Of a DNA stretch of 33,024 nt, positions 5,210 to 22,286 are shown piece after piece. Origin of the DNA: a virus; the IMG/VR virus record IMGVR_UViG_3300038551_000066, positions 1 through 33,024 of that record; one strand, written 5' to 3'. The translations under genes and the position numbers were made by a program. The stretch's first letter is position 1. Every line of letters starts with the position of its first letter. Under the pieces are notes generated by a model that worked only from the letters and a program-made list of their open reading frames with translations, did no database searches and was not told the origin of the DNA.

Positions 5210-6634
5210 ATGCCTGCCCCAAACCCAAATCTTGACACTCTTGGCGATCCGCTCGCCACACCCGGACCGACCGCCGAGGACATCGCCGATGTGGACCGCG
5301 CGCTTGAAAACTTTTTGAAACCCGCGCTCACTCCAGAAGAGGAAGAAGCGAAGCGGAAGGAAGAGGAAGAAGCGAAGCGGAAGGAAGAGGAAGAGAAGGC
5401 GAAATCTGCCGCTGCCGACGATGCTAACAAGCAGAAGGCCGGCGCGACTGACGACAAATCTAAGGCCGACGCGGACGCCAAGGCCAAGACTGACGCGGAC
5501 GCCAAGGCCAAGACTGACGCGGACGCCAAGGCCAAGACCGACGCCGATGCCGCTGCCGCCAAGGCGAAGGAAGAAGGGGACGTGAAGAAGGCGCAAGCGC
5601 ACGACCCTTACAAGGACGTGCAACTTCCGCCGACGGCTCGCGGCCAGAGCGCGCAAGCCTTCGCGACGCTGAAGGCCCGCGCGGCGCAAGACCTCTCTAC
5701 CCGGGATCAGAAGATTGCGGACCTTGAGAAGCAAGTCAAGGAATTGTCTGAGAAGACGGCGAGTGCTGTTGCACTGGAGAAACTCCAAGCCGCTGAGAAG
5801 GAACTCGCGGACCTTCGCAAGTGGAAGAAGACTCTCGACATTGAGGCAGACCCGGAATTCAAGACGTTCGACGACCGCGCGAAGCTTGTCAAGGACTTCA
5901 TCTATTCCGAGTTGAAGGGCACGGGGAAAGTCACCGATGAGCACATCAAGAAGATTGAAAGCCTCGGCGGACCGGCTAAGATTGACTGGGAGCAGCTTTT
6001 CGCCAAGCTCGAAAATCCGACGGCTCAGGGGGTCATCACAACCAAGCTCGCGGAATTGAAGTCCCTTTCCTTCGAGAAGCAGCGCGCCATCGAAGCCGCG
6101 AAAGCCAACGTGGATCAATACGTTGCCACTCGCGAAAAGGAATTCGTCGAAGCCTCGACCAAGCATAATACCGAGACGAAAGAGCTTCTTCTCGGATTCC
6201 TCGGGCAATTTTCGTGGATGGCTCCGCAGAAGCCTGCGGACAATGCCGATGAAGCCGCCAAGAAAGCCGCGATGGATCACAACTCCTGGCTCGAAGGGGT
6301 CAATAAAGTTCTGGGTGATGCGCTCACCGATGATTCTCCGCAGATGCGCGCGGTGTTGCTGGCCGGCGCGGCGGACCATCTCAGGCTCAAGCGTGATTAT
6401 GCGACTGTCAAGGCCGCGCTCGACGGCGTCGAGGCTAAGCACAAGGCGGAAGTTGAGGCGCTGACAAAGCAACTGGAAGAGGCGACGGCCAAACTCGAAA
6501 AATTGAAGGCCGGCAGTTTGATGAAGCGCGAAGGCGGTGCTCCGACGGTTCAGAAAACGACGCCCGGTGCGAGGGAAAATTTCTCGACCAACGCCGAGAT
6601 GGCGATTGACGCCCATTTTGCGAACTTGAAGTAA
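5210..6634 (+). CDS. Scaffolding-like capsid assembly protein
   Basis: 474 residues, strongly charged and mostly helical, lying where podoviruses encode the scaffold. Residues about 43-65 are a Glu/Lys repeat (EEEEAKRK twice), and about 85-112 repeat the 8-residue unit DADAKAKT. Heptad-rich coiled coil continues from about 165 to 205 and again at about 410-445. The C-terminus ends in a short folded-looking element (AEMAIDAHFANLK) of the kind scaffolds use to contact the coat protein. The start ATG follows the previous stop by three bases with a purine-rich AGAAAGAG upstream. Unlike the usual order, the capsid gene does not follow directly: four glycosyltransferase genes intervene. A non-scaffold role such as an internal core protein cannot be excluded. 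Confidence 0.7.
   Translation: MPAPNPNLDTLGDPLATPGPTAEDIADVDRALENFLKPALTPEEEEAKRKEEEEAKRKEEEEKAKSAAADDANKQKAGATDDKSKADADAKAKTDADAKAKTDADAKAKTDADAAAAKAKEEGDVKKAQAHDPYKDVQLPPTARGQSAQAFATLKARAAQDLSTRDQKIADLEKQVKELSEKTASAVALEKLQAAEKELADLRKWKKTLDIEADPEFKTFDDRAKLVKDFIYSELKGTGKVTDEHIKKIESLGGPAKIDWEQLFAKLENPTAQGVITTKLAELKSLSFEKQRAIEAAKANVDQYVATREKEFVEASTKHNTETKELLLGFLGQFSWMAPQKPADNADEAAKKAAMDHNSWLEGVNKVLGDALTDDSPQMRAVLLAGAADHLRLKRDYATVKAALDGVEAKHKAEVEALTKQLEEATAKLEKLKAGSLMKREGGAPTVQKTTPGARENFSTNAEMAIDAHFANLK
5339..5386 (+). repeat. 24-nt tandem repeat, two copies, in scaffold-like gene
   Basis: Two identical 24-base units (5339-5362 and 5363-5386) encode the Glu/Lys-rich unit EEEAKRKE; a partial third copy follows. 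The unit length is a multiple of three and keeps the frame, as expected of coding repeat expansion in a disordered charged linker. Confidence 0.85.
5468..5539 (+). repeat. 24-nt tandem repeat, three copies, in scaffold-like gene
   Basis: Three almost identical 24-base units begin at 5468, 5492 and 5516 and encode DADAKAKT; only the last base of the third differs. A degenerate copy follows (GACGCCGATGCC). Low-complexity coding repeat, probably a flexible or helical spacer. Confidence 0.9.
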
Positions 6635-7503
6635 TGAGCGACATCGTCCAGCCTACCGGCTTGGCGAAGACGCGCGTTCTCATCGCTTTGCCGTGGTATA
6701 AGAGTGTCAGCCCCGTGACGGCGTTCTCCGTCATGGGACTGATTGACCGCTCTCGCGTCGGAATTCTGCTCCATCATGGCGACGCTTTCGTCATTCACAC
6801 TCGGAACAAGGTCGGGGATTATTTTCTCCGCAGTGAGTTTGAATGGATGCTTACGCTTGATGACGACGTGGTGTGTCCCTTCGGGAATGCCAAGTGGTTC
6901 AACAGTTACACTGGATTCAATTTCCCAGAGAAGTTTGCGGGAATGCACACGCTGAACCGGCTTCTGTCGCATGGAAAAAAACTTGTTGGCGCGGTCTATT
7001 GGGGCCGGCACGCTAACGGAAAGGCGATGTATTGCGAGGGGATGAATGATCCGCAAGAGGCGGCGACGGTTCGCAAGATGGTCCCTGTGGATCACATCAA
7101 GCCGACTCGCTGGGTCGGAACTGGCTGCATGTTGATCCATCGCGACGTTTTTCTTGACATAGAGAAGAGGTATCCCAATCTTGCCCGAGGCTCTGACGGG
7201 AGCGGCGGGCAGTGGTTCACTCCGGCGCAACATAAGGCGCTCGAAACAATCGAGCGGGCTCGGAAGGTTTTGAGACCGGACAAAGGCGCTGGATTGACTT
7301 CCGAGGATGCTTACAACGCGCTGAAGATTCTCGAAGACGGCGCGGCGGCAAACCGGAATGGCGCGAAGTTGGGCATGGGCGAAGACGTGACTTTTTGTAT
7401 TCGCGCGGCGGAGGCGGGGCACCAGCCGTATGTTGATCTTGGGCTTGTCTGTGGGCACATGGGAAACATCATTTACGGACCAAAAAATACTAAGGAAACC
7501 TAA
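6634..7503 (+). CDS. GT-A-like glycosyltransferase 1
   Basis: 289 residues, starting in a TAATG overlap with the scaffold-like gene. A first beta strand (TRVLIALPWYKSV) opens a nucleotide-sugar binding fold, followed by WMLTLDDDVVCP at about 71-82, the acidic DxD-type metal/sugar-nucleotide site. Downstream, VGTGCMLIHRDVF and GEDVTFCIRAAEAG with a later H-x-G (CGHMG) match the acceptor-side and catalytic positions of GT-A enzymes seen in phages. Probable role: transfer of a sugar to a phage or host acceptor in the cytoplasm. It heads a run of four such genes inside the head module. Donor and acceptor cannot be told from sequence. Confidence 0.75.
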   Translation: MSDIVQPTGLAKTRVLIALPWYKSVSPVTAFSVMGLIDRSRVGILLHHGDAFVIHTRNKVGDYFLRSEFEWMLTLDDDVVCPFGNAKWFNSYTGFNFPEKFAGMHTLNRLLSHGKKLVGAVYWGRHANGKAMYCEGMNDPQEAATVRKMVPVDHIKPTRWVGTGCMLIHRDVFLDIEKRYPNLARGSDGSGGQWFTPAQHKALETIERARKVLRPDKGAGLTSEDAYNALKILEDGAAANRNGAKLGMGEDVTFCIRAAEAGHQPYVDLGLVCGHMGNIIYGPKNTKET

Positions 7504-7504
7504 T

Positions 7505-8296
7505 ATGCCAACGTTGGTAAAAAATCCACGCGGCTTGTCCCGTCCGGTGATTTTGTCGAAGACGAAAGATCAGGCTCCAATAACGATCAAGGGGACGATG
7601 AGCAAGCCGAGTCTTTTGGCGGTTCCTGTTCCTTGCCCGCCGGAGAAGCTCCTCATCATTCCACATCTCGAAATGGGAGACGCCATTGTGTGCAACGGGC
7701 TCGTTCGATACCTTGCCGAAAGGATCCCGAATCCGGTTCTCCTTCTTACCCGACGCGATTACTTAGATGATGTGCGGCTCATGTATTCCGATGACGACCG
7801 GATTCAGGTCTATGGGGCGAACAGCGTCAGCGTTGTGAAAGGCGACTGGATTCCTCAGTGGCCCGGGGCGATCAAGCTCGGTTACTGGGGGGAGAACTTC
7901 AATAAAGCCGTCTGGGATCAAGATTTTTATCGGCAAGCCAACGTCCCTTTCGATGCACGATGGGGCTCATTTCACTCCCCAAACATCCCGTTGACCCCAC
8001 GCCCAAAAAACAACATTTTTCTCGTCCATGAGGACCCGCGACGGCATTACATGGTTGATCCTCGCCGGCTTCCGGTATGGACTCGGGTTGACATTACGCG
8101 GCGCCCGTCCTTTTGGGATTGGCTGCCGGAAATCCTTCACGCCCGAGAGCTTCATTTCATCGACTCGGCTTTTTTGAACCTTGCGGACACTCTTTGGGCT
8201 CTGGGGTTGTTGAACGAAACGCGGCTTGTGTGGCACAAGTATGCCCGACCGACGGAGCCGCCTACGGTTCGCGCACCGTGGGAGATTTTCACATGA
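7505..8296 (+). CDS. GT-B-like glycosyltransferase 2 (heptosyltransferase/GT9-like)
   Basis: 263 residues. The start is ATG 7505, because AAGGA (7492-7496) lies 8 nt upstream; an in-frame start at 7430 would overlap the previous gene by 74 nt. The segment KLLIIPHLEMGDAIVCNGLVRYLAE (about residues 48-72) matches the N-terminal strand, Gly-Asp turn and helix of ADP-heptose:LPS transferase-like GT-B enzymes. ELHFIDSAFLNLADTLWALG near the C-terminus fits the second-domain donor site (Ser/Asp after a hydrophobic strand). The protein is shorter than bacterial heptosyltransferases (~320-350), so the fold may be trimmed. Second in the four-gene glycosyltransferase run; next gene overlaps by ATGA. Confidence 0.7.
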   Translation: MPTLVKNPRGLSRPVILSKTKDQAPITIKGTMSKPSLLAVPVPCPPEKLLIIPHLEMGDAIVCNGLVRYLAERIPNPVLLLTRRDYLDDVRLMYSDDDRIQVYGANSVSVVKGDWIPQWPGAIKLGYWGENFNKAVWDQDFYRQANVPFDARWGSFHSPNIPLTPRPKNNIFLVHEDPRRHYMVDPRRLPVWTRVDITRRPSFWDWLPEILHARELHFIDSAFLNLADTLWALGLLNETRLVWHKYARPTEPPTVRAPWEIFT

Positions 8297-9033
8297 CTGA
8301 CAATCGCAAGATACTCTTGGCCCTTCAATACTGGGAAGGGGACCGGCGTAGGGCCGCAGAAATCGCCCGCTTCATCGCCAATATCGAGCCCGCGCATTCT
8401 GAGGTTGCTGATTTTCTTTTTGTGGCCCGACAAGATGCGAAACCGCAGGACCCGGAAGTCATTCGGCATGTTTCGGGAAAATTCAACGTCCACCAGCACA
8501 AGGCGACGACCGGCGGAGTTGGGCACCCGTGGGGGTGTTGGGTGCTTTGGTTTGAAACGGTGAAATGGCTTTGGCAATGGAAGAAAGCGCAGCGGTCTCC
8601 CGATTACAAAGCGATGCTGACTTTCGAGGCGGATTGCGTTCCGCTGACGAAGACATGGATTCGTGAGCTTTCTGAAGAGTGGGACCGTGTTAACCGTCTG
8701 CGTGGGACCGTCAATATCATGGGGTCGGAGACGTGGGATTTCTGGGACCATGTTAACGGAAATCTCTTCGTCGGTGGAAATTTCGATTTTCTTGACTACG
8801 TCATCCGAGGCGTGTCGTTGAAAGGATGCCCGATGAATCGCGGCTGGGACTGTTATCTATTCCCGGATTTTGTTCGCTGGGGCTCGGCGAATACCGTCAC
8901 CATGTTGAATGTTTGCGGGCGCCGCCACGTCGAGAAAGATTGCCTGAAGCGAGGAGTTGAGCGCGGCGTCCGGTTCATCCACGGGGTCAAAGATGATTCA
9001 CTTTTCTCCCAGGCTCGGGCTGTTCTCCTTTGA
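8293..9033 (+). CDS. Glycosyltransferase-like protein 3
   Basis: 246 residues. The start is ATG 8293: it overlaps the previous stop as ATGA and has GGGAG (8280-8284) 8 nt upstream; an upstream start at 8113 lies wholly inside the preceding gene. The protein begins with a KILLALQYWEGD strand, then a helix with RRRAAEIARFI. KAMLTFEADCVPLTKTWIREL around 107-126 has the hydrophobic strand plus E-x-D expected at a GT-A metal site. MNRGWDCYLFPDF follows. The similarity is to the fold pattern, not to a family I can name; a nucleotide-sugar transferase is most likely given its neighbours. It ends in a TTGA overlap with the next gene. Confidence 0.6.
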   Translation: MTDNRKILLALQYWEGDRRRAAEIARFIANIEPAHSEVADFLFVARQDAKPQDPEVIRHVSGKFNVHQHKATTGGVGHPWGCWVLWFETVKWLWQWKKAQRSPDYKAMLTFEADCVPLTKTWIRELSEEWDRVNRLRGTVNIMGSETWDFWDHVNGNLFVGGNFDFLDYVIRGVSLKGCPMNRGWDCYLFPDFVRWGSANTVTMLNVCGRRHVEKDCLKRGVERGVRFIHGVKDDSLFSQARAVLL

Positions 9034-9785
9034 AAATTTGGGTCTTCACCATTTCGCATCAAGAGGGCTACATGATGCCATTCTTCTTGCGTCATTACTC
9101 GACTTTCGCGGACCGGATTATTGTCTGGGACGAGCACTCGACGGATGGCACGCGCGAGGCGGTGAAGGATTGCTCGCTCGCGGAGCTTCGGGATTGGCCT
9201 TACCGGGGACTGGATGACGAGAGGTTTCTTGAGGCCCAAAACAATTGGTATAAAGAGGCCCGAGGGCATGCTGACTGGGTCATGTGGCCGGATGTGGATG
9301 AATTGCTTTGGCACCCGTCGCCGCGTCTTTTCCTAGATCAAATGAAGCGCGCTGGTTGGGACATGCTCCATTCGCGCGGATATGCAATGATGCCGGCAAG
9401 CCCGCCAAAGAACGACGCCCGAAGCCAGTTTTACCAGCTTTGCACGAAAGGGGTCCCGACGCCGAATTACGACAAGAGTATCATCTTCAACCCGGATTGC
9501 GATACTCATTTCGTCGCGGGCCGGCACAAGATGAAGGGTTTTTCCGGCAACCGACCTCCTCCGACCTTCTGGTCATTCAAGCTTTTCCATTGTCATTTTC
9601 TCGGGGTTCGCTACACCCAGCAACGGAACGCCCGAAACTATTCCCGGACATTGGACAAGAGAACTTATGCGTGGAATTATGCTCCCGAGTTCAATCGCCC
9701 GGACCAACCTGGGACGGTTGAATGGGTGAAAGAGATTCAACGCACCCGGAAGGTCGTGGACGTTTTTTCTCACGTGCCGCGTTGA
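9030..9785 (+). CDS. GT2/GT92-like glycosyltransferase 4
   Basis: 251 residues. The start is TTG 9030, overlapping the previous TGA (TTGA); the next ATG (9072) would delete the first strand KIWVFTISHQEGY, which is integral to the fold. Motifs: ISHQEGYMMPFFLRHY, the usual N-terminus of this kind of family-2 enzyme; DRIIVWDEHSTDGT at 29-41 (nucleotide-binding Asp residues); ADWVMWPDVDELLW at about 81-93 with the D-x-D; and a later FHCHFLGVRY His-rich segment. Likely a cytoplasmic sugar transferase. Its stop is part of the TTGACA element preceding the capsid leader. It is the last of four tandem glycosyltransferase-like genes. Confidence 0.75.
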   Translation: MKIWVFTISHQEGYMMPFFLRHYSTFADRIIVWDEHSTDGTREAVKDCSLAELRDWPYRGLDDERFLEAQNNWYKEARGHADWVMWPDVDELLWHPSPRLFLDQMKRAGWDMLHSRGYAMMPASPPKNDARSQFYQLCTKGVPTPNYDKSIIFNPDCDTHFVAGRHKMKGFSGNRPPPTFWSFKLFHCHFLGVRYTQQRNARNYSRTLDKRTYAWNYAPEFNRPDQPGTVEWVKEIQRTRKVVDVFSHVPR

Positions 9786-9806
9786 CAACCTTCTGATTTC
9801 CGCAAC
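9782..9806 (+). promoter_or_regulatory. Two-part motif TTGACA-N12-YSGSAAC, copy 2 (capsid leader)
   Basis: TTGACA at 9782-9787 and CCGCAAC ending at 9806 with the same 12-base spacer as the other copies. It overlaps the stop of the fourth glycosyltransferase gene and opens the 200-base leader of the major capsid gene, separating the glycosyltransferase block from the capsid. The nearest ATG (9826) is 19 nt after the motif; the capsid ATG is 180 nt after it. Candidate promoter for strong capsid expression; no canonical -10 is seen. Confidence 0.6.
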
Positions 9807-9825
9807 TGGATTCTTGAGAGCCTGA

Positions 9826-9981
9826 ATGTCTGCCCGGAAGGCCCTCCCGGGAAGCGACCTAAGCGCCAGTGGTCTGGCGAGAGCGGTGACGGTTTGTCAG
9901 TTCAACGGCGCTGTCGTTGGGGGCCAATTCTCAACGTCCGGGATTTTCGGGGCCGGATACACAATCCCCAGCAGGAGATAG
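9826..9981 (+). CDS. Possible 51-residue leader ORF before the capsid gene
   Basis: An ATG at 9826, 19 nt after the two-part motif, opens a 51-codon frame ending at TAG 9979-9981, five bases before the capsid ATG. The product would be small with a basic start and a Gly/Ser-rich second half (GAVVGGQFSTSG, GAGYTIPSRR). There is a weak GAGAG upstream. Its stop lies inside the spacer between the capsid's AGGAG and start, which would allow translational coupling. Codon use does not look clearly coding, and the region also forms hairpins, so it may be only a structured leader. Confidence 0.3.
   Translation: MSARKALPGSDLSASGLARAVTVCQFNGAVVGGQFSTSGIFGAGYTIPSRR
9833..9879 (+). promoter_or_regulatory. 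Hairpins in the capsid gene leader
   Basis: Two short stems lie here: CCCGG (9833-9837) with CCGGG (9847-9851), and CGCCAG (9864-9869) with CTGGCG (9874-9879) closed by a 4-base loop. Neither is followed by a T-run, so they are not simple terminators. They lie in the only stretch of about 200 bases without a firm gene and could stabilise or regulate the capsid mRNA. Confidence 0.35.
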
Positions 9982-9986
9982 ACAAC

Positions 9987-11282
9987 ATGGCTACTGAGTG
10001 CCTAACGGTCCACCAAATCAGCGATTTCGCGACGAAAGACACGGAACGCATGACCGGGACCATTGCAAAGACTCTCGCCGCAAACTCCCCCTTTGTTAAC
10101 GTGATTCAGGGCGGGACGTTCCCGGCAGGCGTGAGCGACGAAATTCGGACGAGCGTTCAAATGCAGGCCGCTCCCGGCGATTCCCTCGCCATTCCGACCT
10201 TCGTTTGTGACTCGGACATCTGCGGCGAAGACGGCGAACAAGACTTGACGGATACCGTCGAGTTTGTGTCCCGGCTTGAGAGCAAGCGCGGTAAGGGTCC
10301 GAAAGTGTGCGTGAAGAAGGGCTATTCCGCTTTCCGGGGCAGTTACGTTGCTGCTGAGGATTCTCTGCGGAAGCTCATTACGCAATACATCAATTCCGAT
10401 GTGCGAGCGCAGCTTTATCTGCGGTCTGCCTCGAAATTCGTATGCGCTGCGGGGTATGACTTTGACTCGCTGTTCACTGGCGGGAACGAGACTGACCTCG
10501 GAGTCCAGTTTGCGAACATCGCGCCTACCGGTCCGCTGTCCTTCCAGACGTTGCACGCCATCGCGCGCTACATGAAGGAAGCTCTGTTTGCCGAGATGTA
10601 TGACGGCGGAAGTAAGGGGATGCCCCATTTCCGTTTCATCGGTTCGGACGACGCGGTTGAATTCCTGCGGAGTCAGGTGGGGGTGTTGGCCAACATGTAT
10701 GCCCTCACTTCCGGCGGCTACAAGCTCGGTGAAGTGACGCTTACGGCTTACTCTTTTGAGCAGGCCCCGGCGTATCGCGGTCTTGCTTTCGGTGTTGACC
10801 AGCGCCCGCTTCGTGCGAACGCTTTCGACGGCGAAGGGAATCTCGACCTTCTTGACCCTGTGGTCAACATTGCGAATCCGGTCAAGAACACCGCTTATGC
10901 TCGCGCGAATCCTTTGTGGCGGGGTGCGAATTGGGAAGTTGGTTTCTTGATGGCGGACAATGCCTTCAAGCGCCTTGTGCCCGAGCGGTATGTCGGCGAG
11001 GGGAGCTTCAAGTTCGCGCCGCAGTTGCACATGGGCGAACTCGACTGGCATTATGTCATCGACAACGGCTGTAATAGCCGTGGCGATTTCGGCTGGCACC
11101 AGTATCAAATCAGCCGGGCTTACCAGCCGATGCGCCCGCAGTGGATTGTCCCGATTCTCTACAAGAAGCCTTGTCAGAATCTCGGGCTCATCTCTGAGGT
11201 TTGCGATACGCTGAGCACTTACACAGGTGCGGACAGTTACGCCGACTTGGAGTGCGTTGACCCCGGCGAAGAGTTGCAATAA
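9987..11282 (+). CDS. Major capsid protein
   Basis: 431 residues. ATG 9987 is chosen because AGGAG (9973-9977) lies 9 nt upstream; a longer in-frame reading from 9894 has no support. Position (after portal and scaffold-like gene, before fibres and tail genes), length, and mixed alpha/beta composition without enzyme motifs fit an HK97-fold coat protein. Supporting stretches are an N-terminal helical arm (TERMTGTIAKTLAAN), a charged loop around residues 75-110, a long helix near QTLHAIARYMKEALFAE, and a late beta segment ending in the Pro/Trp/Tyr-rich YQPMRPQWIVPILYKK. It has about nine cysteines, many for a coat protein. No firm homologue was recalled, so the call rests mainly on context. It has its own leader and a downstream terminator, as expected for a highly expressed gene. 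Confidence 0.7.
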   Translation: MATECLTVHQISDFATKDTERMTGTIAKTLAANSPFVNVIQGGTFPAGVSDEIRTSVQMQAAPGDSLAIPTFVCDSDICGEDGEQDLTDTVEFVSRLESKRGKGPKVCVKKGYSAFRGSYVAAEDSLRKLITQYINSDVRAQLYLRSASKFVCAAGYDFDSLFTGGNETDLGVQFANIAPTGPLSFQTLHAIARYMKEALFAEMYDGGSKGMPHFRFIGSDDAVEFLRSQVGVLANMYALTSGGYKLGEVTLTAYSFEQAPAYRGLAFGVDQRPLRANAFDGEGNLDLLDPVVNIANPVKNTAYARANPLWRGANWEVGFLMADNAFKRLVPERYVGEGSFKFAPQLHMGELDWHYVIDNGCNSRGDFGWHQYQISRAYQPMRPQWIVPILYKKPCQNLGLISEVCDTLSTYTGADSYADLECVDPGEELQ

Positions 11283-11624: not shown

Positions 11625-12373
11625 AGAATTTTTTCCTTGCGCTGCTACTGGTCGGGTTGACTGGTTGCGGCACCCTCATCCCGAAGCGGGTTGAGTTTGG
11701 ACAAGACAAGGTCAAGGCCGTCCCCACACAGACCGACCGAGAGAAAGAGACTCAACGGCGGGCGGCGGCTCTGGCCGCACAAAAAGCCCGCGAAACACGG
11801 GAAGCGGCGTTGACAAACAATGCCCCGCCCGCCGTTACGGTCCCCGCGCGGGATACTGAGGCGCTGACAGAGGCGGTTTCCGAAAGCCTCGGTCCTCCGA
11901 AGCATGACCCGTCCGGTGATGACCCGCAGGCTCTCGCGGCGGAATTGCGTGTTGCTATTGCCAAGTTGAATGCCCGACTCGACTCATTCCGGGACAAAAA
12001 CGATGAGAACATCGGGAAGAAGATAGAAGGCACCGGCTTCCTTCAAATCCCGTATTTCGTTTGGCTTCTCATGGTGGTTGTCGTTGGTTTTGTCGGGTTG
12101 ATTTTGCTCGGTATCGGCTGGTCTTTTCTCAAGATGTTCGCCATGAGCAACCCGCCTGTGGCTCTCGGGGTCAATGCGGTTGCGATGGGAGGGAAGTTGA
12201 CAGCGCGCGCCGTTTCGCAACTTATTAAAGGCGGGGAAGCTTTCAAAGACGCCCTTGGGGGCGTAGTGTCTGACCCGGCTTTGCTTGAGCGCGTGAAAGA
12301 GTTGTTTCGGACGAGCCACAAAGCGGCTCAAGACGAGCATCTTCAGGACGCGGTAAAAGAATTGACAAAATGA
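11621..12373 (+). CDS. Lipoprotein with internal transmembrane segment (spanin-like candidate)
   Basis: 250 residues. The N-terminus is a lipoprotein signal peptide: MKN, a hydrophobic run, then lipobox LTGC with the acylated Cys at 16. Residues 20-140 are polar, Ala/Arg/Glu-rich and probably helical. A strong transmembrane helix spans about 144-170 (VWLLMVVVVGFVGLILLGIGW), followed by about 80 residues with amphipathic helices. A lipidated end in the outer membrane plus a membrane anchor is the plan of a unimolecular spanin, which fuses the two membranes at lysis; the long tail after the membrane segment is atypical. Alternatives are a superinfection-exclusion lipoprotein or a virion membrane protein. 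It starts in an ATGA overlap with the small membrane protein gene. Confidence 0.6.
   Translation: MKNFFLALLLVGLTGCGTLIPKRVEFGQDKVKAVPTQTDREKETQRRAAALAAQKARETREAALTNNAPPAVTVPARDTEALTEAVSESLGPPKHDPSGDDPQALAAELRVAIAKLNARLDSFRDKNDENIGKKIEGTGFLQIPYFVWLLMVVVVGFVGLILLGIGWSFLKMFAMSNPPVALGVNAVAMGGKLTARAVSQLIKGGEAFKDALGGVVSDPALLERVKELFRTSHKAAQDEHLQDAVKELTK
12197..12221 (+). promoter_or_regulatory. Two-part motif TTGACA-N12-YSGSAAC, copy 6 (inside the lipoprotein gene)
   Basis: TTGACA at 12197-12202 and TCGCAAC ending at 12221, with exactly the spacing of the five intergenic copies. It is in the coding part of the lipoprotein gene, 148 nt before the collagen-like gene's ATG. It could be an internal promoter for the fibre genes or a chance match; given a TTGACA, a random match to the second half is about 1 in 2000. 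Confidence 0.4.
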
Positions 12374-13437
12374 GTTGCGGCGATTGCAATACAACGGTCC
12401 CCTGCGGGTCAAACCCGTGTGCGGTGAGCACTACCAACACGGCGGCTTGTGAGTCGCTTCCGTCGGCGTTGGACAACTTCATTACTCAGTTTTTTGGGGT
12501 CGTCACTAAGACTGAAGTTGATGGCGCCGTCGGGTGGATTCTGCCTTGTGACCTTGAGGTCGGTCTCGAAGCCAACCCCCGTGATGTTGGCGAGGGGCTC
12601 GCGTGCTACTTTCTCCGGCTTTTTCAGGACGGTATTACCGGGCTTCAGGGAGAACAGGGGGAGAAAGGTGATGCCGGCGTTGACGGAAATAACGGATACA
12701 CCGTGACGCTGACAGGCGCCAATGTGCCCACATCCGGCGCGTGGAGTGTCAAGATGCAAGCCAACTCGGCTATTGTCGAGGGGTTGACGGTCTATGTCGA
12801 AGATTCGGGATATCACAAGATCACTGCGATTGGCGGCGACTGGACGGTTTTCTTGACGGTCGTTGAACTCAAATCTTCGCCTACCGCTTACATCTCCGCC
12901 GGGCATATCGTCACCCCCGCCGGGCCGAAAGGTGCGAAGGGGAGCACCGGGGCGACAGGTCCGAAGGGGAATACTGGCGACAAAGGCGCGACAGGTGATA
13001 AAGGAGACCAAGGGGACCCGGGAACATCTTACACAGGAATTAACGAGCAGGTCCTTGGATCGGGCACGCCTTACACCGTCACTGATACTCTGGCTCCCGT
13101 AGTTCTCGGATCGGTTCAGGCTGAAATTACGCTGCCGGACCTCGGGACGTATCTCGTCACGTTCACGGCAAATGTCGAAATGGATTCGACGGCTGCCGCT
13201 GTGGCTCCGTTGGATACGGTTACGGTTTCCGTATATGACGACATCGACGCCGATTATGTCTCTAGCTCAACCCAGACGGTTCGGCTTCTGCCAGACATGC
13301 GGTCTGTTGTCACTCTTACTTTCCTTCACACCACGGACAGCGCAAATCACACGCTCTCTTTGTATGCTTCTTGCCTTACTAGTGGGAAGGCTTACATCCG
13401 AGGTCAAAGCCGGTGCCTGTATGTGAGGATTGCATGA
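12370..13437 (+). CDS. Collagen-like fibre protein 1
   Basis: 355 residues, starting in an ATGA overlap with the lipoprotein gene. The N-terminal 85 residues are Cys-rich (CGDC, PCGSNPC) and then read as a compact domain (LDNFITQFFGVVTKTEVDGAVGW), probably the virion-attachment part. Gly-X-Y collagen triplets occur at about 90-112 and 185-220 (GPKGAKGSTGATG, GDKGDQGDPG), separated by a beta-rich domain of about 70 residues. The C-terminal ~135 residues are beta-rich with a Thr/Val pattern (AEITLPDLGTYLVTFTANVEM), like the trimeric heads of phage fibres. Such proteins form triple-helical shafts projecting from the head or tail and bind surfaces. A second collagen-like gene follows. Confidence 0.75.
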   Translation: MSCGDCNTTVPCGSNPCAVSTTNTAACESLPSALDNFITQFFGVVTKTEVDGAVGWILPCDLEVGLEANPRDVGEGLACYFLRLFQDGITGLQGEQGEKGDAGVDGNNGYTVTLTGANVPTSGAWSVKMQANSAIVEGLTVYVEDSGYHKITAIGGDWTVFLTVVELKSSPTAYISAGHIVTPAGPKGAKGSTGATGPKGNTGDKGATGDKGDQGDPGTSYTGINEQVLGSGTPYTVTDTLAPVVLGSVQAEITLPDLGTYLVTFTANVEMDSTAAAVAPLDTVTVSVYDDIDADYVSSSTQTVRLLPDMRSVVTLTFLHTTDSANHTLSLYASCLTSGKAYIRGQSRCLYVRIA

Positions 13438-13649
13438 GTGCTTCGCGTAACTGTTTTTGCGGCCCCGTTGTTGGGCGCATCCAAGCTCCGGAGGTCTTAG
13501 TTGACGGCGCTGTCCCTCGGATGGCGACGATTTGCATTTCGCGGCGGAAGCCCCCGTCTCCGGTTTCTGTTCCGCGCGAGTATTGGGAAGACGAAGACAC
13601 CCCGAAATATTTCCAAGATGAACTTGGAAATTTCCTTGAACTGCAATGA
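13434..13649 (+). CDS. Small protein between the two fibre genes
   Basis: 71 residues. ATG 13434 is the start: GAGG (13425-13428) lies 5 nt upstream and the start overlaps the previous stop as ATGA; the upstream GTG 13413 is less likely. The N-terminus has two close cysteines (NCFCGP). A hydrophobic strand (MATICISRR), a Pro-rich stretch and an acidic/aromatic end ([18 protein letters not shown]) follow. It is translationally coupled on both sides to fibre genes, which suggests a fibre assembly or joint protein. No family is recognised. Confidence 0.65.
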
Positions 13650-16105
13650 AGCTCTCCGAAAAACCTGTTTCAACTGGCCCAGTCCAATACGTTACCGCGC
13701 TGATTAGCGGTCCGTCTGGTCCTTTGGTCCGTCGCGTGGCCCCCTACAATCTCGGTCAAGTTGGTCCGACAGGTCCGACAGGTCCGACCGGAGCAATCGG
13801 CGCCACGGGGCCGACAGGCCCGACTGGCCCGACCGGAGCAGTCGGCGCCACGGGGCCGACGGGTCCGACGGGTCCGACCGGCCCGACTGGCCCGACCGGA
13901 GCAGTCGGCGCCACGGGGCCGACGGGTCCGACGGGTCCGACCGGAGCAGTCGGCGCCACGGGGCCGACAGGTCCGACGGGTCCGACTGGCCCGACCGGAG
14001 CAGTCGGCGCCACGGGGCCGACAGGTCCGACGGGTCCGACGGGTCCGACGGGTCCGACCGGCCCGGACGGTGTATCGGCCAACCCGCAATTTGAGTCCCT
14101 CTATGAGGCATCGACGACCGGCTCTGGGTGGAATCAATACACGTGGGGCGGAAACGATTCGGTTTTCGGAAACGTGACGGAGCTTTACGTCGCTACTCTG
14201 GATGCTGCCACTGGAAGCGATTTTTCGGCAGACCTCGCGGCGCTGCAATCCGGAAGCAAGATTCTTTTCGCGGACGTGAACGACCTAAGTAGTTACTGGA
14301 CGTTCGATGTGACGGCGGCAACTTCGGTCAACGAGCCCGGTTCATATTTGATTCCGGTTTCCCCCGACGTGTCTAACGGAAGCGGTCCGGCGTTGTGGCC
14401 CGGAAATGCGCTTGTAACTATCTACCAATACCCTGGCTCGCAAGGTCCGACGGGTCCAACAGGCCCGACGGGTCCAACAGGCCCGACAGGCTCGACGGGG
14501 GCCACTGGGCCGGCTGGTGGTATTGAAGGGTCCATCTTCTATTTGGATGACATCGCTTCCGACATCGGCGGTTATTTCGTCATTGACACTTCCCCGACTT
14601 CGACTGGCGAGGTCATTGACCAAGTAACCGGAGTGACTTCCGGCGGCGGCGCGGCACTCATCGAATCCTATGCTACCCCTTCGGGCGTCCCTGGGGTAAC
14701 TGTCATCCCCGCCGGCAATTGGGTTTTCAACTTCTGGGCGGATGTAGATTCTACGGCTGGCGGAAATTCTAATCTTCGGTTCGACGTTTACCAGAGGGCT
14801 TCTGGAGGGGCCGAGACTCTATTGTTTACGGGCGCCTCGACCACTCTTACCACGGGGCCACTTGCGTTCACTGAGGTCATCTCCGTTCAACCCGATATCG
14901 TCATTTTGGACACTGACCGCATTGTGTTGAAAGTTTACGGAGTGACCACGGCGGTAGCCGCCAAGGTTATTCGTTTTTCTCACAACGGGAGCGCGCGCTA
15001 CTCGCACATGCATACCCCGTTGATTTCGGTCGGGGCGCAAGGTCCGACCGGGCCGACAGGTCCGACAGGTTCGACCGGCCCGACGGGTCCGACCGGCCCG
15101 ACGGGTCCGACCGGCGCGTCAGGGGCCGGCGGGACAACTGGCGATGTTCAGGTTTTTACCGGCTCAGGGACTTGGAACAAACCGACCGGCGCGGTTGGAG
15201 TGTATGTAATCTGCATCGGTGGAGGCGGCGGCGGCGGCGGAAGCACGGCGACAAACGCGACTACGGGCACCAAGATTGGCGGCGGCGGTGCTGGCGGCGG
15301 GGCTCGGTCACAGCTTTATTTCCCGGCGGCTTATCTTCCTGACTCGGTTCCTGTGTCTGTAGGGGCGCCGGCATCTGGCGGGGCTGGAACTGGAAACACC
15401 GGAACTGCGACGGACGGTCAAGTCGGGCAGCCGGCGTATTTTGGCACTTCCGGGAGTTTTTGTAAAGCCTTCGGCGGTGGTGGAGGTGTTGGCGGTCGGT
15501 TGAATTCGAACGGCGGCGGGGCTGGCGGTGGTGGCGTAGCTGGGTCTGGCGCGAATGGAACTGTCGGGGCGAGTGGTAACGGCGGATATCCTGGGACCGG
15601 AGTATCTCCGTATGAGGCAGGTGGCCATGGCGGTGTCGGTGGAAACAACGTCGCCGGAGGTCACACTGAGTATGGCGGCGGAGGAGGCGGAGCCGCTACT
15701 GCGGCAACTGGTAGCAATGGCGGCACGTCAACTTTCGGCGGAGGCGGCGGGGGCGGCGGTGGAGCTGTGACCGGGGCCTCTGGTGCTCAGACTGCCAACC
15801 CTGGCGGGATTGGCGGCGGGCACACTTACAATTCTCTCGCGCTTGGGGACCTCTCTAACGCGACTGGCGGGGCTGTTCAAGGCGGGACCGGAACGAACGG
15901 GGTTTCTGGTCCTTCGGGATACGTTGCCGGAGGCGGCGGGGGTGGCGGAGCAGGCCACACGGGCGGCAATGGCGGCGACGGCGGCAATGGGGGATTTCCT
16001 GGCGGGGGAGGCGGCGGAGGCGGCGCGGGCACCCTCACGGGCAACGTCGGGGGAACCGGCGGGGCCGGAGGGACCGGGGTTATTTACGTCATCACCACTT
16101 TCTAA
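13646..16105 (+). CDS. Large collagen-like, Gly-rich fibre/adhesin protein
   Basis: 819 residues. Order of parts: a 39-residue N-terminus; an uninterrupted Gly-X-Y tract of about 34 triplets (residues 40-141), mostly Gly-Pro-Thr with periodic GAV-GAT pairs; a beta-rich domain; a second GPT tract (about 264-293); another beta domain of about 165 residues resembling fibre or jelly-roll modules; a third GPT tract (about 462-495); then a C-terminal domain of about 310 residues opening with [24 protein letters not shown]. That opening and the many Gly-runs match phage receptor-binding Gly-rich domains that pack as polyglycine II helices. Likely a trimeric receptor-binding fibre. The Thr in the Y position of the triplets are potential O-glycosylation sites. 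It ends before a perfect hairpin. Confidence 0.8.
13763..14070 (+). repeat. Gly-Pro-Thr coding tandem repeats with five GAI/GAV-GAT markers
   Basis: A 9-base unit (GGTCCGACS) repeated with a nearly constant 20-base marker GAGCARTCGGCGCCACGGGG starting at 13791, 13836, 13899, 13944 and 13998. Marker spacings are 45, 63, 45 and 54 bases, all multiples of 9, so copy-number change would keep the collagen triplet and the reading frame. It is a coding tandem repeat, not a CRISPR array. Confidence 0.9.
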
Positions 16106-18587: not shown

Positions 18588-20596
18588 TGCCCACGCCGAA
18601 GCTCCAAGATCAAGACGTGACTTTCTTCCGGGGGACGCGGTCGGACGCGGCTCCCGCGCAACTTGCTCCTGGCTACGTGTGGAACATGGTCAACATGGTC
18701 AACCGGGGCGGCGTTTTGAAGACGCGCCCGGGCCATATTTGCCGGACCAGCCTTCCGGACGGCAAGCTCCAAGGTGCCGAGCTTTTTCGCCCGAAGGTCG
18801 GGGCTGAGGTTCTCGTCATAGTCATATCGGGCATCGTTTACGTTGCCCCGCTGCCGTTTACCACGTTCCGAATGCTCGACAACGTGCTTCTGTCCCCGCA
18901 TGTTGAACGCGTGTATTTTTGCCTTGCGGAACAATCCGTCACCCGGGCGGACCACACTCTTGAATCAGCGATTGAATTCATCCTCCCGCGCAATGTGCTT
19001 TTCATTCAGGACGGCGGTTATAGCCCTCCGGCTTGGTTCGACGGGTCTAATTCCGGACACGTGCGAGAAAACCCTTACGAGACCCCGGCTGGCGGTCCGA
19101 TGTGTTGGGTTGGGGATAGGCTTTGGATTGCCACGGGCTCGCGCGTGTGGGCGAGCGACATCGCGAATCCTTTTTCGTTCCGTGAGGCCGAATATCTCGG
19201 CGGCGCGTCGAGCTTGGTATTCCCCGAGCCTGTCAATGCGCTTGCTAAGACGCCGGGGCTTGAGTTCTCCGAGCTTCTTGTGGGCACTGACAACGCCACT
19301 CATCTCGTTTTAGCGCATGTTCGCAATCGCGCAGTGTGGGCGACGACCGACGGCTTCCAGCGAGAGCTATTTCCTATTGGCATCACGTCGCAGCGGTCGG
19401 TTGTATCCCAATTCGGCAAACTCTGGTGGTTTTCGCCGGCTGGGCTCACTAGTTTTGATGCCGCCGCTCTCTCGAAGCAGACGGGCCGAACGCCGATTCG
19501 CGACATTGAGCTTGCCGTGTCCAAGGCCGGACTCGCCGACAATCTCGGTGGGGTATGCGGTGCGACGTTTGGCAATTACCTCTTGATGTCGGTCCCCAGC
19601 GGTGACGTTTACAATTCCCATACCTGGGTCATGGATGGTGCCAGCGTCGAGAGTCTTCAAGACTCTTCTGGCCCGTCATGGGGCGGCTACTGGACGGGCA
19701 CCCGTCCGGTGCAATGGGTCTATGGCACCATCAACGGTAAGGAGCGAATCTTCCACGTCTCGGTTGACGTGGACGGGAAAAATCGTCTCTGGGAATCGTT
19801 CACCGAGTCCCGGACGGATAATGGCTGCCACATTACTTGGAGCGTGGAGACGCGAGGTTATTTCGGCGCGCTGTCGGGAGTGAACTTCCCGCCGGGCCGG
19901 CAGAAGACTCTTTGCTACGCCCAGGCACAGCTTCTTGAAATCCTTGGCCCTCTTGACGTGGCTGTTTTCTGGGCTGGGGCTAATCGCGGTCCGTATAAAC
20001 GTTGTCTCACCAAACGTATTGCCGCCGAAAAAGGTTGCATTCGCTGGGACGTGCCTATTACGGAGAGCACCGTCTTCTTTGGGCTCAAGCCGCAATCGCG
20101 CACCATTACCACCGAGGACGTGCGGAAGAAGAGCCCCGACGCGAATGAATCCTGTCCGGTCGAGGGAGACCGAGAGGAAAACGACACCTCTTTTCAATTC
20201 TGCATCGTCGGCAGCGGTGAGGCGGCAATTGAGTGGATTCGAGTTTTTGCCGAGCCGGCGACGGCGACTGACCTTATGTCTGGCACGTGTGAGAAAGATG
20301 AGACTGACGCCAATTTGGTCCGGTTCGACGGCGCGGCGTCCACGGCGAGCACTTATGTTGAGGCGGTCGAGCCATTGGCAAACGGTTCTCCGTTTTTCGA
20401 GAGCACGCAAACGGTTGTCATCGTCAAGAACGGAATCACCGTGTCTGGCTCCGGCTGGGCTCGGAGTATTATTTCTCAGCAGGATGCCGACAAGATGGCG
20501 GCGCGCATTGCTGAGCGGCAAGCCGAAGTCCAGTATCAACGTGAGGCCCCGACTCAACTAAGCGACGGAGAGTCTTTCAATCCCGATGAACTTTAA
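18587..20596 (+). CDS. Tail nozzle/hub-like structural protein
   Basis: 669 residues, starting in a TAATG overlap. The N-terminus (GTRSDAAPAQLAPGYVWNMVNMVNRGGVLKTRPG) has the N-x-x-x-R-x-G-x-L-x-x-R-P-G signature of T7 gp12 or P22 gp10-like tail tube/nozzle proteins. Repeated four-stranded beta units with W/G turns (DRLWIATGSRVWASD, FGKLWWFSPAGLTSFDA, FGNYLLMSVPSG) suggest a beta-propeller. The C-terminal part becomes more acidic and ends in a helix. Such a protein forms the hollow end of a short tail through which DNA leaves. A propeller-containing tail-side protein of another type is possible. It overlaps the next gene by 11 nt. Confidence 0.65.
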   Translation: MPTPKLQDQDVTFFRGTRSDAAPAQLAPGYVWNMVNMVNRGGVLKTRPGHICRTSLPDGKLQGAELFRPKVGAEVLVIVISGIVYVAPLPFTTFRMLDNVLLSPHVERVYFCLAEQSVTRADHTLESAIEFILPRNVLFIQDGGYSPPAWFDGSNSGHVRENPYETPAGGPMCWVGDRLWIATGSRVWASDIANPFSFREAEYLGGASSLVFPEPVNALAKTPGLEFSELLVGTDNATHLVLAHVRNRAVWATTDGFQRELFPIGITSQRSVVSQFGKLWWFSPAGLTSFDAAALSKQTGRTPIRDIELAVSKAGLADNLGGVCGATFGNYLLMSVPSGDVYNSHTWVMDGASVESLQDSSGPSWGGYWTGTRPVQWVYGTINGKERIFHVSVDVDGKNRLWESFTESRTDNGCHITWSVETRGYFGALSGVNFPPGRQKTLCYAQAQLLEILGPLDVAVFWAGANRGPYKRCLTKRIAAEKGCIRWDVPITESTVFFGLKPQSRTITTEDVRKKSPDANESCPVEGDREENDTSFQFCIVGSGEAAIEWIRVFAEPATATDLMSGTCEKDETDANLVRFDGAASTASTYVEAVEPLANGSPFFESTQTVVIVKNGITVSGSGWARSIISQQDADKMAARIAERQAEVQYQREAPTQLSDGESFNPDEL

Positions 20597-22286
20597 TTAC
20601 CAAAAAGTTATCACGGGGCGCCGATTCCCGATTGACTACATAAGTCCGCCGGTTTGTGAGGGCGAATTCTCGTCCACTAGCACGCCGTTTATTAGTTTGC
20701 TCCCGATTCTCAAGGAATCAATCGAGACTCTTGAAGCCTTCTATCAAGATGGCGTGTTTACGTTTCGATGGGATGCCGTAAGGGGAGCTTTGTGTTACTC
20801 GGTTTGGAAGCTGAAAGAGACCGATGAGTGGGAAATTGTCGCTGAGTGCATCGACGCGACAAGTTGGGAAACCAATGTGGCCGGTTGCTATCGGGTCACG
20901 GTTATTTCGGATGAAGGAGAGTCGGAGCCGAGCGAAACAGTTTGCACCACCGAGGCGACAATTTGTCCGGTCTTTTCCCTTGCTTTGCCGTCTTCAATGT
21001 TGGCGGAAGAGGGGACCTCAGTAATACTTACAGCTACGGCGGAGATGACCCCGGCTCAAAGTCTGAATTACGTTTGGACCAAAGATACGATTGTCATTTT
21101 GTCGGAAATTCTTCCGTCGGGGACTCCTTCGTCTATTGTCAAGAACAACGTAACCCCGGGTGATGACGAAGGCCAGTATTGTGTGACGGTAACTGTGATT
21201 GAGGAAGAAGATTGCGACCCTATAGAAAGCTGCTGTAACTTGACGGTCGAGCCTTTTGTTCCGCCGGGATGTGACGACGTAGGGGACCCGGCTCCAGAAG
21301 GTGCGGAAGCTTTCCGTATTCCGCTTTACCCGGGAGATCATCCGGTTTATCCTGGGTTGCCAATCCCGATTGAATGGGAGAATTTTGACCTTTCCGCCGT
21401 CTCGCTCACGGAAGAGGTTTCCTGTCCGAATCCACCGGACCCGCCTACACTCTACGGGAGGCGCGCTATCGTTAGTGAAGTTGACCATCCGCCGGGGGCT
21501 TACGGAATGGCCTATGTTTCCGGGTGGTTCATTCGCGGGGACCTTGTTATCTGTTCCGGCACTCCGGCCTTTCCAATCAATTGTGAGGTTATCGTCAACA
21601 TCCTCGAAGATGAGGAGTTTGTTTTTGATTGCAACACGGCATATTTGCAAAATTCCGGGCTCGCAGAAAATTGGGGTCCGTCATTCCCTCCCTTCGGGAC
21701 GCTTCCGCCGGTCGGGACTTTGGGGGAAGGATGGAATGTTTGCACCGCCGACGGAGTTACCGGCGTTCAAGCTTATTTTGACAGCATTTTTCTTAATGAC
21801 TTGTCGCTTGGCCCGTGGTATTTCTCGCCGACTAATTGGCACACGAACACGGGGGGACGTTTCACTGCCATAAGTCAGTTCGATCCGTTGAACGACACGA
21901 ATTCGATTACCCTCAAAATCATGCAATTTGACGGGTGCGTTCAGCAACCGAGAGGGCTTCAATTTGCTAACTGGGTGGTTGTGAAGGGTGGATTTCCGGC
22001 GGACGTTCAGACGTGGACCGGAACTTTTCCGACTCGCAGCGTATATGATTACACTACGCTGCAATGGGACGCGCTGTCCGGCGGGCATACAGTAGCTTAC
22101 ACCCAGGCGCACCCGACAGCAACGAATGGTTGCGGGTGGATTCTGGATGTTTACGGGGCGGACAGTTTTCATTGGCGCGGTTTGAAGAAGACAGGGGACA
22201 CGGGCGAGGGAATCTATCTCCGGGATGGAGGTTTCAGCGAAGGCCCGGCTTGTGTGTTGATTGAAGAAATCCCGGTAACGGAGTAA
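20586..22286 (+). CDS. Tail protein with FN3-like and Ig-like domains
   Basis: 566 residues. After about 40 residues, a fibronectin-III-like domain is visible (FTFRWDAVRGALCYSVWKLKETDEWEIVAE ... CYRVTVISDEGESEPSETV, about 55-118). An Ig-like domain follows (SSMLAEEGTSVILTATAEM ... YVWTKD ... DDEGQYCVTVTVIEEEDC, about 130-215) with paired cysteines. The remaining 350 residues are beta-rich, Pro- and Trp-rich, with many more cysteines and no enzyme signature. Such domains on tail proteins typically aid weak binding to host surface sugars. It overlaps the tail-hub-like gene by 11 nt and ends 2 nt before the next. The many Cys suggest disulfides forming after release. Confidence 0.65.
   Translation: MNFNYQKVITGRRFPIDYISPPVCEGEFSSTSTPFISLLPILKESIETLEAFYQDGVFTFRWDAVRGALCYSVWKLKETDEWEIVAECIDATSWETNVAGCYRVTVISDEGESEPSETVCTTEATICPVFSLALPSSMLAEEGTSVILTATAEMTPAQSLNYVWTKDTIVILSEILPSGTPSSIVKNNVTPGDDEGQYCVTVTVIEEEDCDPIESCCNLTVEPFVPPGCDDVGDPAPEGAEAFRIPLYPGDHPVYPGLPIPIEWENFDLSAVSLTEEVSCPNPPDPPTLYGRRAIVSEVDHPPGAYGMAYVSGWFIRGDLVICSGTPAFPINCEVIVNILEDEEFVFDCNTAYLQNSGLAENWGPSFPPFGTLPPVGTLGEGWNVCTADGVTGVQAYFDSIFLNDLSLGPWYFSPTNWHTNTGGRFTAISQFDPLNDTNSITLKIMQFDGCVQQPRGLQFANWVVVKGGFPADVQTWTGTFPTRSVYDYTTLQWDALSGGHTVAYTQAHPTATNGCGWILDVYGADSFHWRGLKKTGDTGEGIYLRDGGFSEGPACVLIEEIPVTE

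Follow-up and report, generated by a model that had tools for sequence, protein, structure and literature searches.

A conserved glycosyltransferase locus between scaffold-like and capsid-like genes in a group of uncultured phages, and its possible role in virion glycosylation

The IMG/VR virus record IMGVR_UViG_3300038551_000066 carries four coupled genes, here called gpA to gpD, between a gene for a scaffold-like protein and a gene for a capsid-like protein. The window analyzed here is the whole record of 33,024 bases, which is part of one genome from a phage group with genomes of about 75 kb. On balance, we favor with moderate confidence the view that the block serves virion glycosylation and is one form of a conserved, modular locus. 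The glycosyltransferase (GT) genes would be expressed together with the structural proteins, late in infection. The products gpA and gpC would initiate or assemble a short glycan on a protein of the virion, with the capsid-like and collagen-like proteins as candidates. The variable genes (gpB and gpD in the window; genes for GDP-fucose-type sugars, sulfate and pyruvate in relatives) would set the glycan of each phage.

This interpretation is based upon the GT-A folds of gpA and gpC, with matches that include viral enzymes from Sulfolobus turreted icosahedral virus (STIV A197), mimivirus (R699) and Paramecium bursaria chlorella virus 1 (PBCV-1), and upon the GT2-type sequence of gpD. It is also based upon the fixed position of gpA and gpC, their coupling, their location on the structural-gene strand and the purifying selection acting on them. 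Genes for sugar-nucleotide short-chain dehydrogenases/reductases (SDR), GDP-mannose 4,6-dehydratase (GMD), sulfotransferases and a pyruvyltransferase in the corresponding intervals of relatives support it further, as do the failure to find thymidylate-synthase-type and C5-methyltransferase genes in 22 near-complete relatives and the presence next door of candidate acceptors, namely collagen-like proteins and a Ser/Thr-rich C-terminus of the capsid-like protein. Precedent is provided by mycobacteriophage capsid and tail-tube glycosylation, as described in passages of PMC12363180 and PMC12619734.

Results

The four-gene block

The genes of the block are as follows.

gpA, 6634..7503, plus strand: predicted GT-A-fold glycosyltransferase, first of two core genes
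gpB, 7505..8296, plus strand: has an N-terminal GD motif and may be of GT-B type, family label unproven
gpC, 8293..9033, plus strand: predicted GT-A-fold glycosyltransferase, second core gene
gpD, 9030..9785, plus strand: GT2-type glycosyltransferase by sequence (Glyco_tranf_2_4), accessory gene

An earlier reading of the letters made without database searches (the sequence-only reading) had described four coupled open reading frames (ORFs) in this order, and all coordinates and junctions re-read from the window agree with it. The scaffold-like gene meets gpA at TAATG (6632-6636), gpA and gpB are separated by a single base at 7504 with AAGGAAA upstream, and the gpB/gpC and gpC/gpD junctions are ATGA (8293-8296) and TTGA (9030-9033), respectively. 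The tight translational coupling it proposed extends to relatives, in which 117 of 196 junctions are readable as four-nucleotide NTGA overlaps. Because gpA and gpC are conserved with low ratios of nonsynonymous to synonymous substitution (dN/dS), gpB has homologues and gpD matches Pfam, the ORFs are, judged by these comparisons, genuine genes and not chance frames. The description of all four as GT-like held for gpA and gpC by fold and for gpD by its Pfam GT2 match, while the GT-B label of gpB found no profile support.

Predicted structures of gpA and gpC

The AlphaFold model of gpA, with a predicted local distance difference test score (pLDDT) of 93, was compared with the PDB using Foldseek and matched GT-A enzymes including STIV A197, human LH3, COLGALT1, mimivirus R699 and GalNAc-T2. 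E-values to many GT-A enzymes ranged from 4e-8 to 4e-5, with a TM-score of about 0.45 by query. Comparison with BFVD structures matched phage GT-A proteins. The gpC model (pLDDT 94) matched glycogenin (E 2e-7), the PBCV-1 capsid glycosyltransferase and xylosyltransferase 1, with TM-scores of 0.5-0.6. Structure prediction, which had been suggested as a check, was run on these two proteins and gave a GT-A fold for both.

The gpA-specific invariants in 54 aligned sequences are D76-x-D78, G249-E250-D251 and H275. Residues D114, D186 and H230 are invariant in 43 aligned gpC sequences; D114 lies in an E-A/S-D context, and the first position of the DXD-type motif varies over the whole set. Median dN/dS across related phages was about 0.10 for gpA and about 0.09 for gpC, indicating purifying selection on both. 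Taken with the models, these active-site-type motifs make it likely that gpA and gpC are GT-A-fold glycosyltransferases. Identity to the PDB matches is only 7-19%, and the comparison therefore establishes the fold and the probable enzyme class but says nothing of donor or acceptor.

Neither gpA of the window nor gpC matched a curated Pfam or NCBIfam family, and the lone curated match among gpA members was that of one sequence in 54 to PF13641 (0.0028). Profile comparison gave no support for common ancestry of gpA and gpC, or of gpC with a third GT-like cluster.

gpB and gpD

The match of gpD to Pfam PF13704 (1.5e-13; 51.5 bits against a cut-off of 27.5) and to PHROG 13126 (4e-9) assigns it to the GT2-type glycosyltransferases. 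For gpB, the N-terminal GD-type motif makes a GT-B-like protein possible; its comparison with Pfam at E<=5 returned nothing except one irrelevant match. Assignment of gpB as a GT9 heptosyltransferase did not gain support, as hhalign against E. coli WaaF, WaaC, WaaQ and WaaU gave a probability of 7% over 48 columns. When gpB and gpD were each used as a single query against IMG/VR, neither returned a relative. Homologues of gpB in four islands (see below) besides that of the window were found via their neighborhood only.

A fixed core with variable cargo in relatives

Alignment-guided scans of IMG/VR yielded at least 80 loci for gpA, at least 80 for the capsid-like protein and 39 for gpC. The relatives are uncultured phages, with longest contigs of 65-76 kb. 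From the matches listed, 153 scaffold-to-capsid intervals (islands) were drawn, of which 67, counting that of the window, are distinct. In each of these 67, gpA comes immediately after the scaffold-like gene; among the loci tabulated, none that has both flanks lacks it, and its copy number is one in each of 22 near-complete genomes. Synteny in relatives, which the sequence-only reading had proposed as a check, was found. Its description of the genes as inserted between scaffold and capsid was not upheld, since gpA is a core gene at this place wherever a relative has both flanks. gpC occurs in 64 islands and had no match in the remaining three, L092, L097 and L135.

Island length ranges between about 1.0 and 6.0 kb. 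Of the 67 islands, 37 encode nucleotide-sugar SDR enzymes (18 of them at least two), and 33 encode a third GT-like family, which has a conserved D-x-D-S motif. A further DXD-containing GT-like family occurs in seven islands, HNH endonucleases in 14, sulfotransferase-family proteins in four and a pyruvyltransferase-family protein in L158. The GMD of relatives scored 506 bits, above the NCBIfam equivalog cut-off of 415; for a GDP-L-fucose-synthase-like protein, Fcl was the best match at 365 bits, below the cut-off of 500; and a PseB-like dehydratase is also among the cargo. When the SDR genes were placed on the capsid-protein tree, six changes were needed, four of them forced by supported branches. 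Some genomes with small islands (G006, G010, G011 and G013) carry sugar genes outside the island, and four genomes carry none at all.

HNH genes (in L005, L123, L034, L008 and others) and GIY-YIG-like genes (L072, L008, L003) are interspersed with the glycan genes in or beside the interval, in many cases immediately ahead of the capsid-like gene. Endonucleases of both kinds may drive cassette exchange. One island protein (L123:6888-7868) has a signal-peptide-like start and the motif HETMHAFG, and resembles a secreted metalloprotease.

Insofar as the place of gpA is constant while cargo comes and goes, and two islands (L092 and L097) have gpA with neither gpC nor cargo, gpA and gpC could instead have taken on a structural or assembly role in the head and have ceased to transfer sugar, with the cargo as unrelated passengers. 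This appears highly improbable, since the motif residues are invariant in the 54 gpA and 43 gpC sequences, as would be expected of active enzymes, and glycan functions are strongly over-represented in the cargo.

Genome setting

In a near-complete relative of 75,330 bases, replication genes, including that for DNA polymerase A, occupy one strand at approximately 1-31 kb, and the structural genes and the island occupy the opposite strand at approximately 32-71 kb. The block therefore lies on the structural-gene strand, in agreement with the position among structural genes claimed for it. This arrangement bears upon a further explanation, in which the enzymes glycosylate hypermodified bases in phage DNA as the T-even glucosyltransferases do. 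Phage GTs often act on DNA, according to passages of PMC12619734 and PMC9614988, and gpA has a very weak PHROG match (E 0.24) to beta-glucosyl-HMC-alpha-glucosyltransferase. The block, however, is located among head genes and apart from the replication genes. The explanation is weakened further because base-modification genes of PF00303 (thymidylate-synthase family) and PF00145 (C5 cytosine methylase) were not found in the 22 near-complete relatives, with positive controls for both. We regard it as the least probable of those considered, and the sequence-only reading had also argued against DNA bases as the target. PF12851 (Tet/JBP) gave no match in relatives, but its control gave no match either.

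On the late strand of the near-complete relative G001, an apparent single ORF of about 2,600 codons was observed at 32896-40761 (minus strand), pieced together from two overlapping pieces (L209:14097-19001 and L210:1-3162). A contig binned as Candidatus Peribacteraceae (L206, JABFSS010000103.1) includes a capsid-like gene that shares 67% identity with that of the window. It is possibly a host link or a binning artefact, and was not used for host assignment.

Flanking genes and the leader RNA

The block is bounded by the following features.

Scaffold-like protein, 5210..6634, plus strand: 474 amino acids, charged and coiled-coil-like, named from position and composition; upstream boundary of the block
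Leader preceding the capsid-like gene, 9786..9986, plus strand: contains a hairpin (9833-9851) and, after it, an H-type pseudoknot (9856-9879)
Capsid-like protein, 9987..11282, plus strand: 431 amino acids, named from conservation and gene order; downstream boundary and candidate acceptor

Homologues of both flanking genes occupy the same places in relatives. The scaffold and capsid identities named by the sequence-only reading come from gene order, with no library match. No specific family match was returned for the scaffold-like protein in library scans, and searches of protein libraries and PDB profiles for capsid, scaffold and portal identities gave no match, the proteins being too divergent. 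The labels scaffold, portal and capsid are accordingly inferred from gene order and conservation. No relatives of the capsid-like and portal-like proteins were found among isolated phages, and the terminase of the window has a weak PHROG match (5e-4). The start of the capsid-like gene was corrected from TTG at 9894 to ATG at 9987, where homologues align. The protein is 63-68% identical to its homologues, with a median dN/dS of 0.037, and its C-terminus is rich in Ser and Thr (27% compared with 12% in the body). In mycobacteriophages, the glycans are located at the C-terminal ends of the capsid and tail-tube subunits, as described in a passage of PMC12619734.

The leader between gpD and the capsid-like gene is about 200 nucleotides long in the window, with a median of 185 nucleotides across relatives. 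A hairpin and pseudoknot with covarying stems were observed in L133, L116, L131, L043, L111, L161 and others. The first stem reads GGCC/GGCC in the majority of relatives and GACC/GGTC in the window, and the second varies with compensation. Pairing was tested sequence by sequence, since MAFFT misaligned the pseudoknot. With the first stem anchored, a second stem of at least 5 base pairs was present in 32 of 41 loci, compared with 5.1 in shuffles and with 12.3 (maximum 18 in 200) when partners were swapped between phages. The leader had no match in Rfam. The predicted structure may control capsid-protein synthesis.

Candidate acceptors downstream

Two collagen-like proteins are encoded downstream of the capsid-like gene.

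Collagen-like protein, 12370..13437, plus strand: Pfam PF01391 match of 9.5e-9; candidate acceptor
Collagen-like fibre protein, 13646..16105, plus strand: PF01391 match of 2e-14 and PHROG tail fibre matches; candidate acceptor

The latter contains a GPT-rich run of 36 Gly-X-Y repeats and a very glycine-rich C-terminal part. Collagen-like proteins occur soon after the capsid-like gene in 20 of 22 relatives. A protein at 20586-22286 of the window has weak matches to an Ig-like family (Pfam Ig_3) and to Hoc-like head decoration (PHROG 2973). A location of the collagen-like and the Ig-like/Hoc-like proteins on the virion surface is plausible from these matches. A collagen hydroxylysine route, suggested by the LH3 and COLGALT1 matches, was rejected, as no 2OG-FeII_Oxy_3 gene (2-oxoglutarate-dependent oxygenase) was found in the 22 relatives.

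Discussion

The main rival to virion glycosylation is modification of the host surface (lipopolysaccharide, capsule or exopolysaccharide) during infection, for example to block superinfection or to prevent released phages sticking to debris. The GMD, GDP-fucose-synthase-like, PseB-like and pyruvyltransferase cargo is the toolkit of surface-polysaccharide loci, and serotype conversion by temperate phages provides a precedent (a passage of PMC12619734). Serotype-converting genes usually exert their effect during lysogeny, however, and no prophage relative was found except one contig of a metagenome-assembled genome. The block is also coupled to head genes, and changes made to the host so late could hardly take effect in the time left. 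Neither a flippase nor a polymerase of the membrane-embedded kind was recognized in the islands examined, in which no systematic search for them was made. Host-surface modification is therefore considered unlikely, though it deserves serious weight.

Several observations weigh against virion glycosylation. Adjacency to structural genes does not by itself reveal what an enzyme acts upon, the identity of the capsid protein is inferred, and glycosylation of the virion is proposed here from gene content. Sugar-nucleotide genes and sulfo- and pyruvyltransferase genes are typical of surface polysaccharide loci too. PF16363 had no match in four of the 22 near-complete genomes, and PF01370 had none in the 33-kb window record. 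Threonine occupies the Y position of Gly-X-Y in 65% of cases in the window and 27% in relatives; the overall figure for bacterial collagen-like proteins, given in a passage of PMC8968730, is 31.6%, and the content in relatives is thus at the ordinary bacterial level. The collagen-like proteins are weakened as acceptors because threonine at Y is common in bacteria and no 2-oxoglutarate hydroxylase was found.

Virion glycosylation by phage GTs is described for the mycobacteriophages Che8 (gp110), Corndog (gp38) and Myrna in passages of PMC12363180, PMC11256854 and PMC12619734. Those phages and the present group both encode GTs, and Gp87 of Mycobacterium phage Ardmore is a weaker viral Foldseek match of gpA (2.7e-5), at the level of fold only. 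The GT genes of Maravista, a relative of Che8, are near the 3' genome end (a passage of PMC11256854), whereas those of the window lie between the scaffold-like and capsid-like genes. Sugar-nucleotide genes lie beside the GTs in many relatives of the window, and the present system is predicted from gene content.

Chloroviruses encode GMD and capsid GTs, with the major capsid protein as target, according to passages of PMC9614988, and gpC matches the soluble GT-A domain of the PBCV-1 enzyme A064R. That likeness is at the level of fold, and PBCV-1 is a eukaryotic algal virus with N-glycans and with GT genes that are scattered and early. Ranked by E-value, STIV A197 (PDB 2c0n; 4e-8) heads the PDB matches of gpA, but it has 191 residues in the structure, is 14% identical to gpA and comes from a different kind of virus with an archaeal host. 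LH3 and COLGALT1, which act on collagen hydroxylysine, resemble gpA at the fold level only (11-13% identity); collagen-like genes lie near the locus, and the spore protein BclA of Bacillus and C. difficile is likewise described as glycosylated in a passage of PMC8968730.

Distant gpA relatives (24-28% identity), annotated as hypothetical, were found in the isolated Pelagibacter phage HTVC023P (gp78) and Synechococcus phage S-SSM7 (SSSM7_095). HTVC023P gp78 adjoins a group-1 glycosyltransferase, and both genes are outside a scaffold/capsid setting in the stretches read. The gpA relatives of isolated phages sit elsewhere, and the scaffold-capsid location is therefore a feature of the group represented by the window. 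A fixed scaffold-capsid position with a two-GT core and exchangeable sugar cassettes was not found in the titles, abstracts and passages of the literature searched, a coverage that largely excludes subscription literature.

More tentatively, and with somewhat less than even confidence, the scaffold-capsid interval may be a dedicated glycan-type locus, in which a fixed core GT pair and an exchangeable cassette would give a lineage-specific sugar coat to the capsid or collagen-like proteins. It would be analogous to the O-antigen and capsule loci of bacteria, with exchange possibly helped by HNH endonucleases. Phage virion glycosylation is already known from a few mycobacteriophages, and what would be new here is a positionally fixed, diversifying variant. 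The locus supplies defined candidate enzymes (gpA and gpC) and candidate acceptors (the capsid-like C-terminus and the collagen-like proteins). An uncultured, widespread phage group appears to keep GTs within its head-gene order while swapping sugar genes, and glycan diversity of phage particles may therefore be common.

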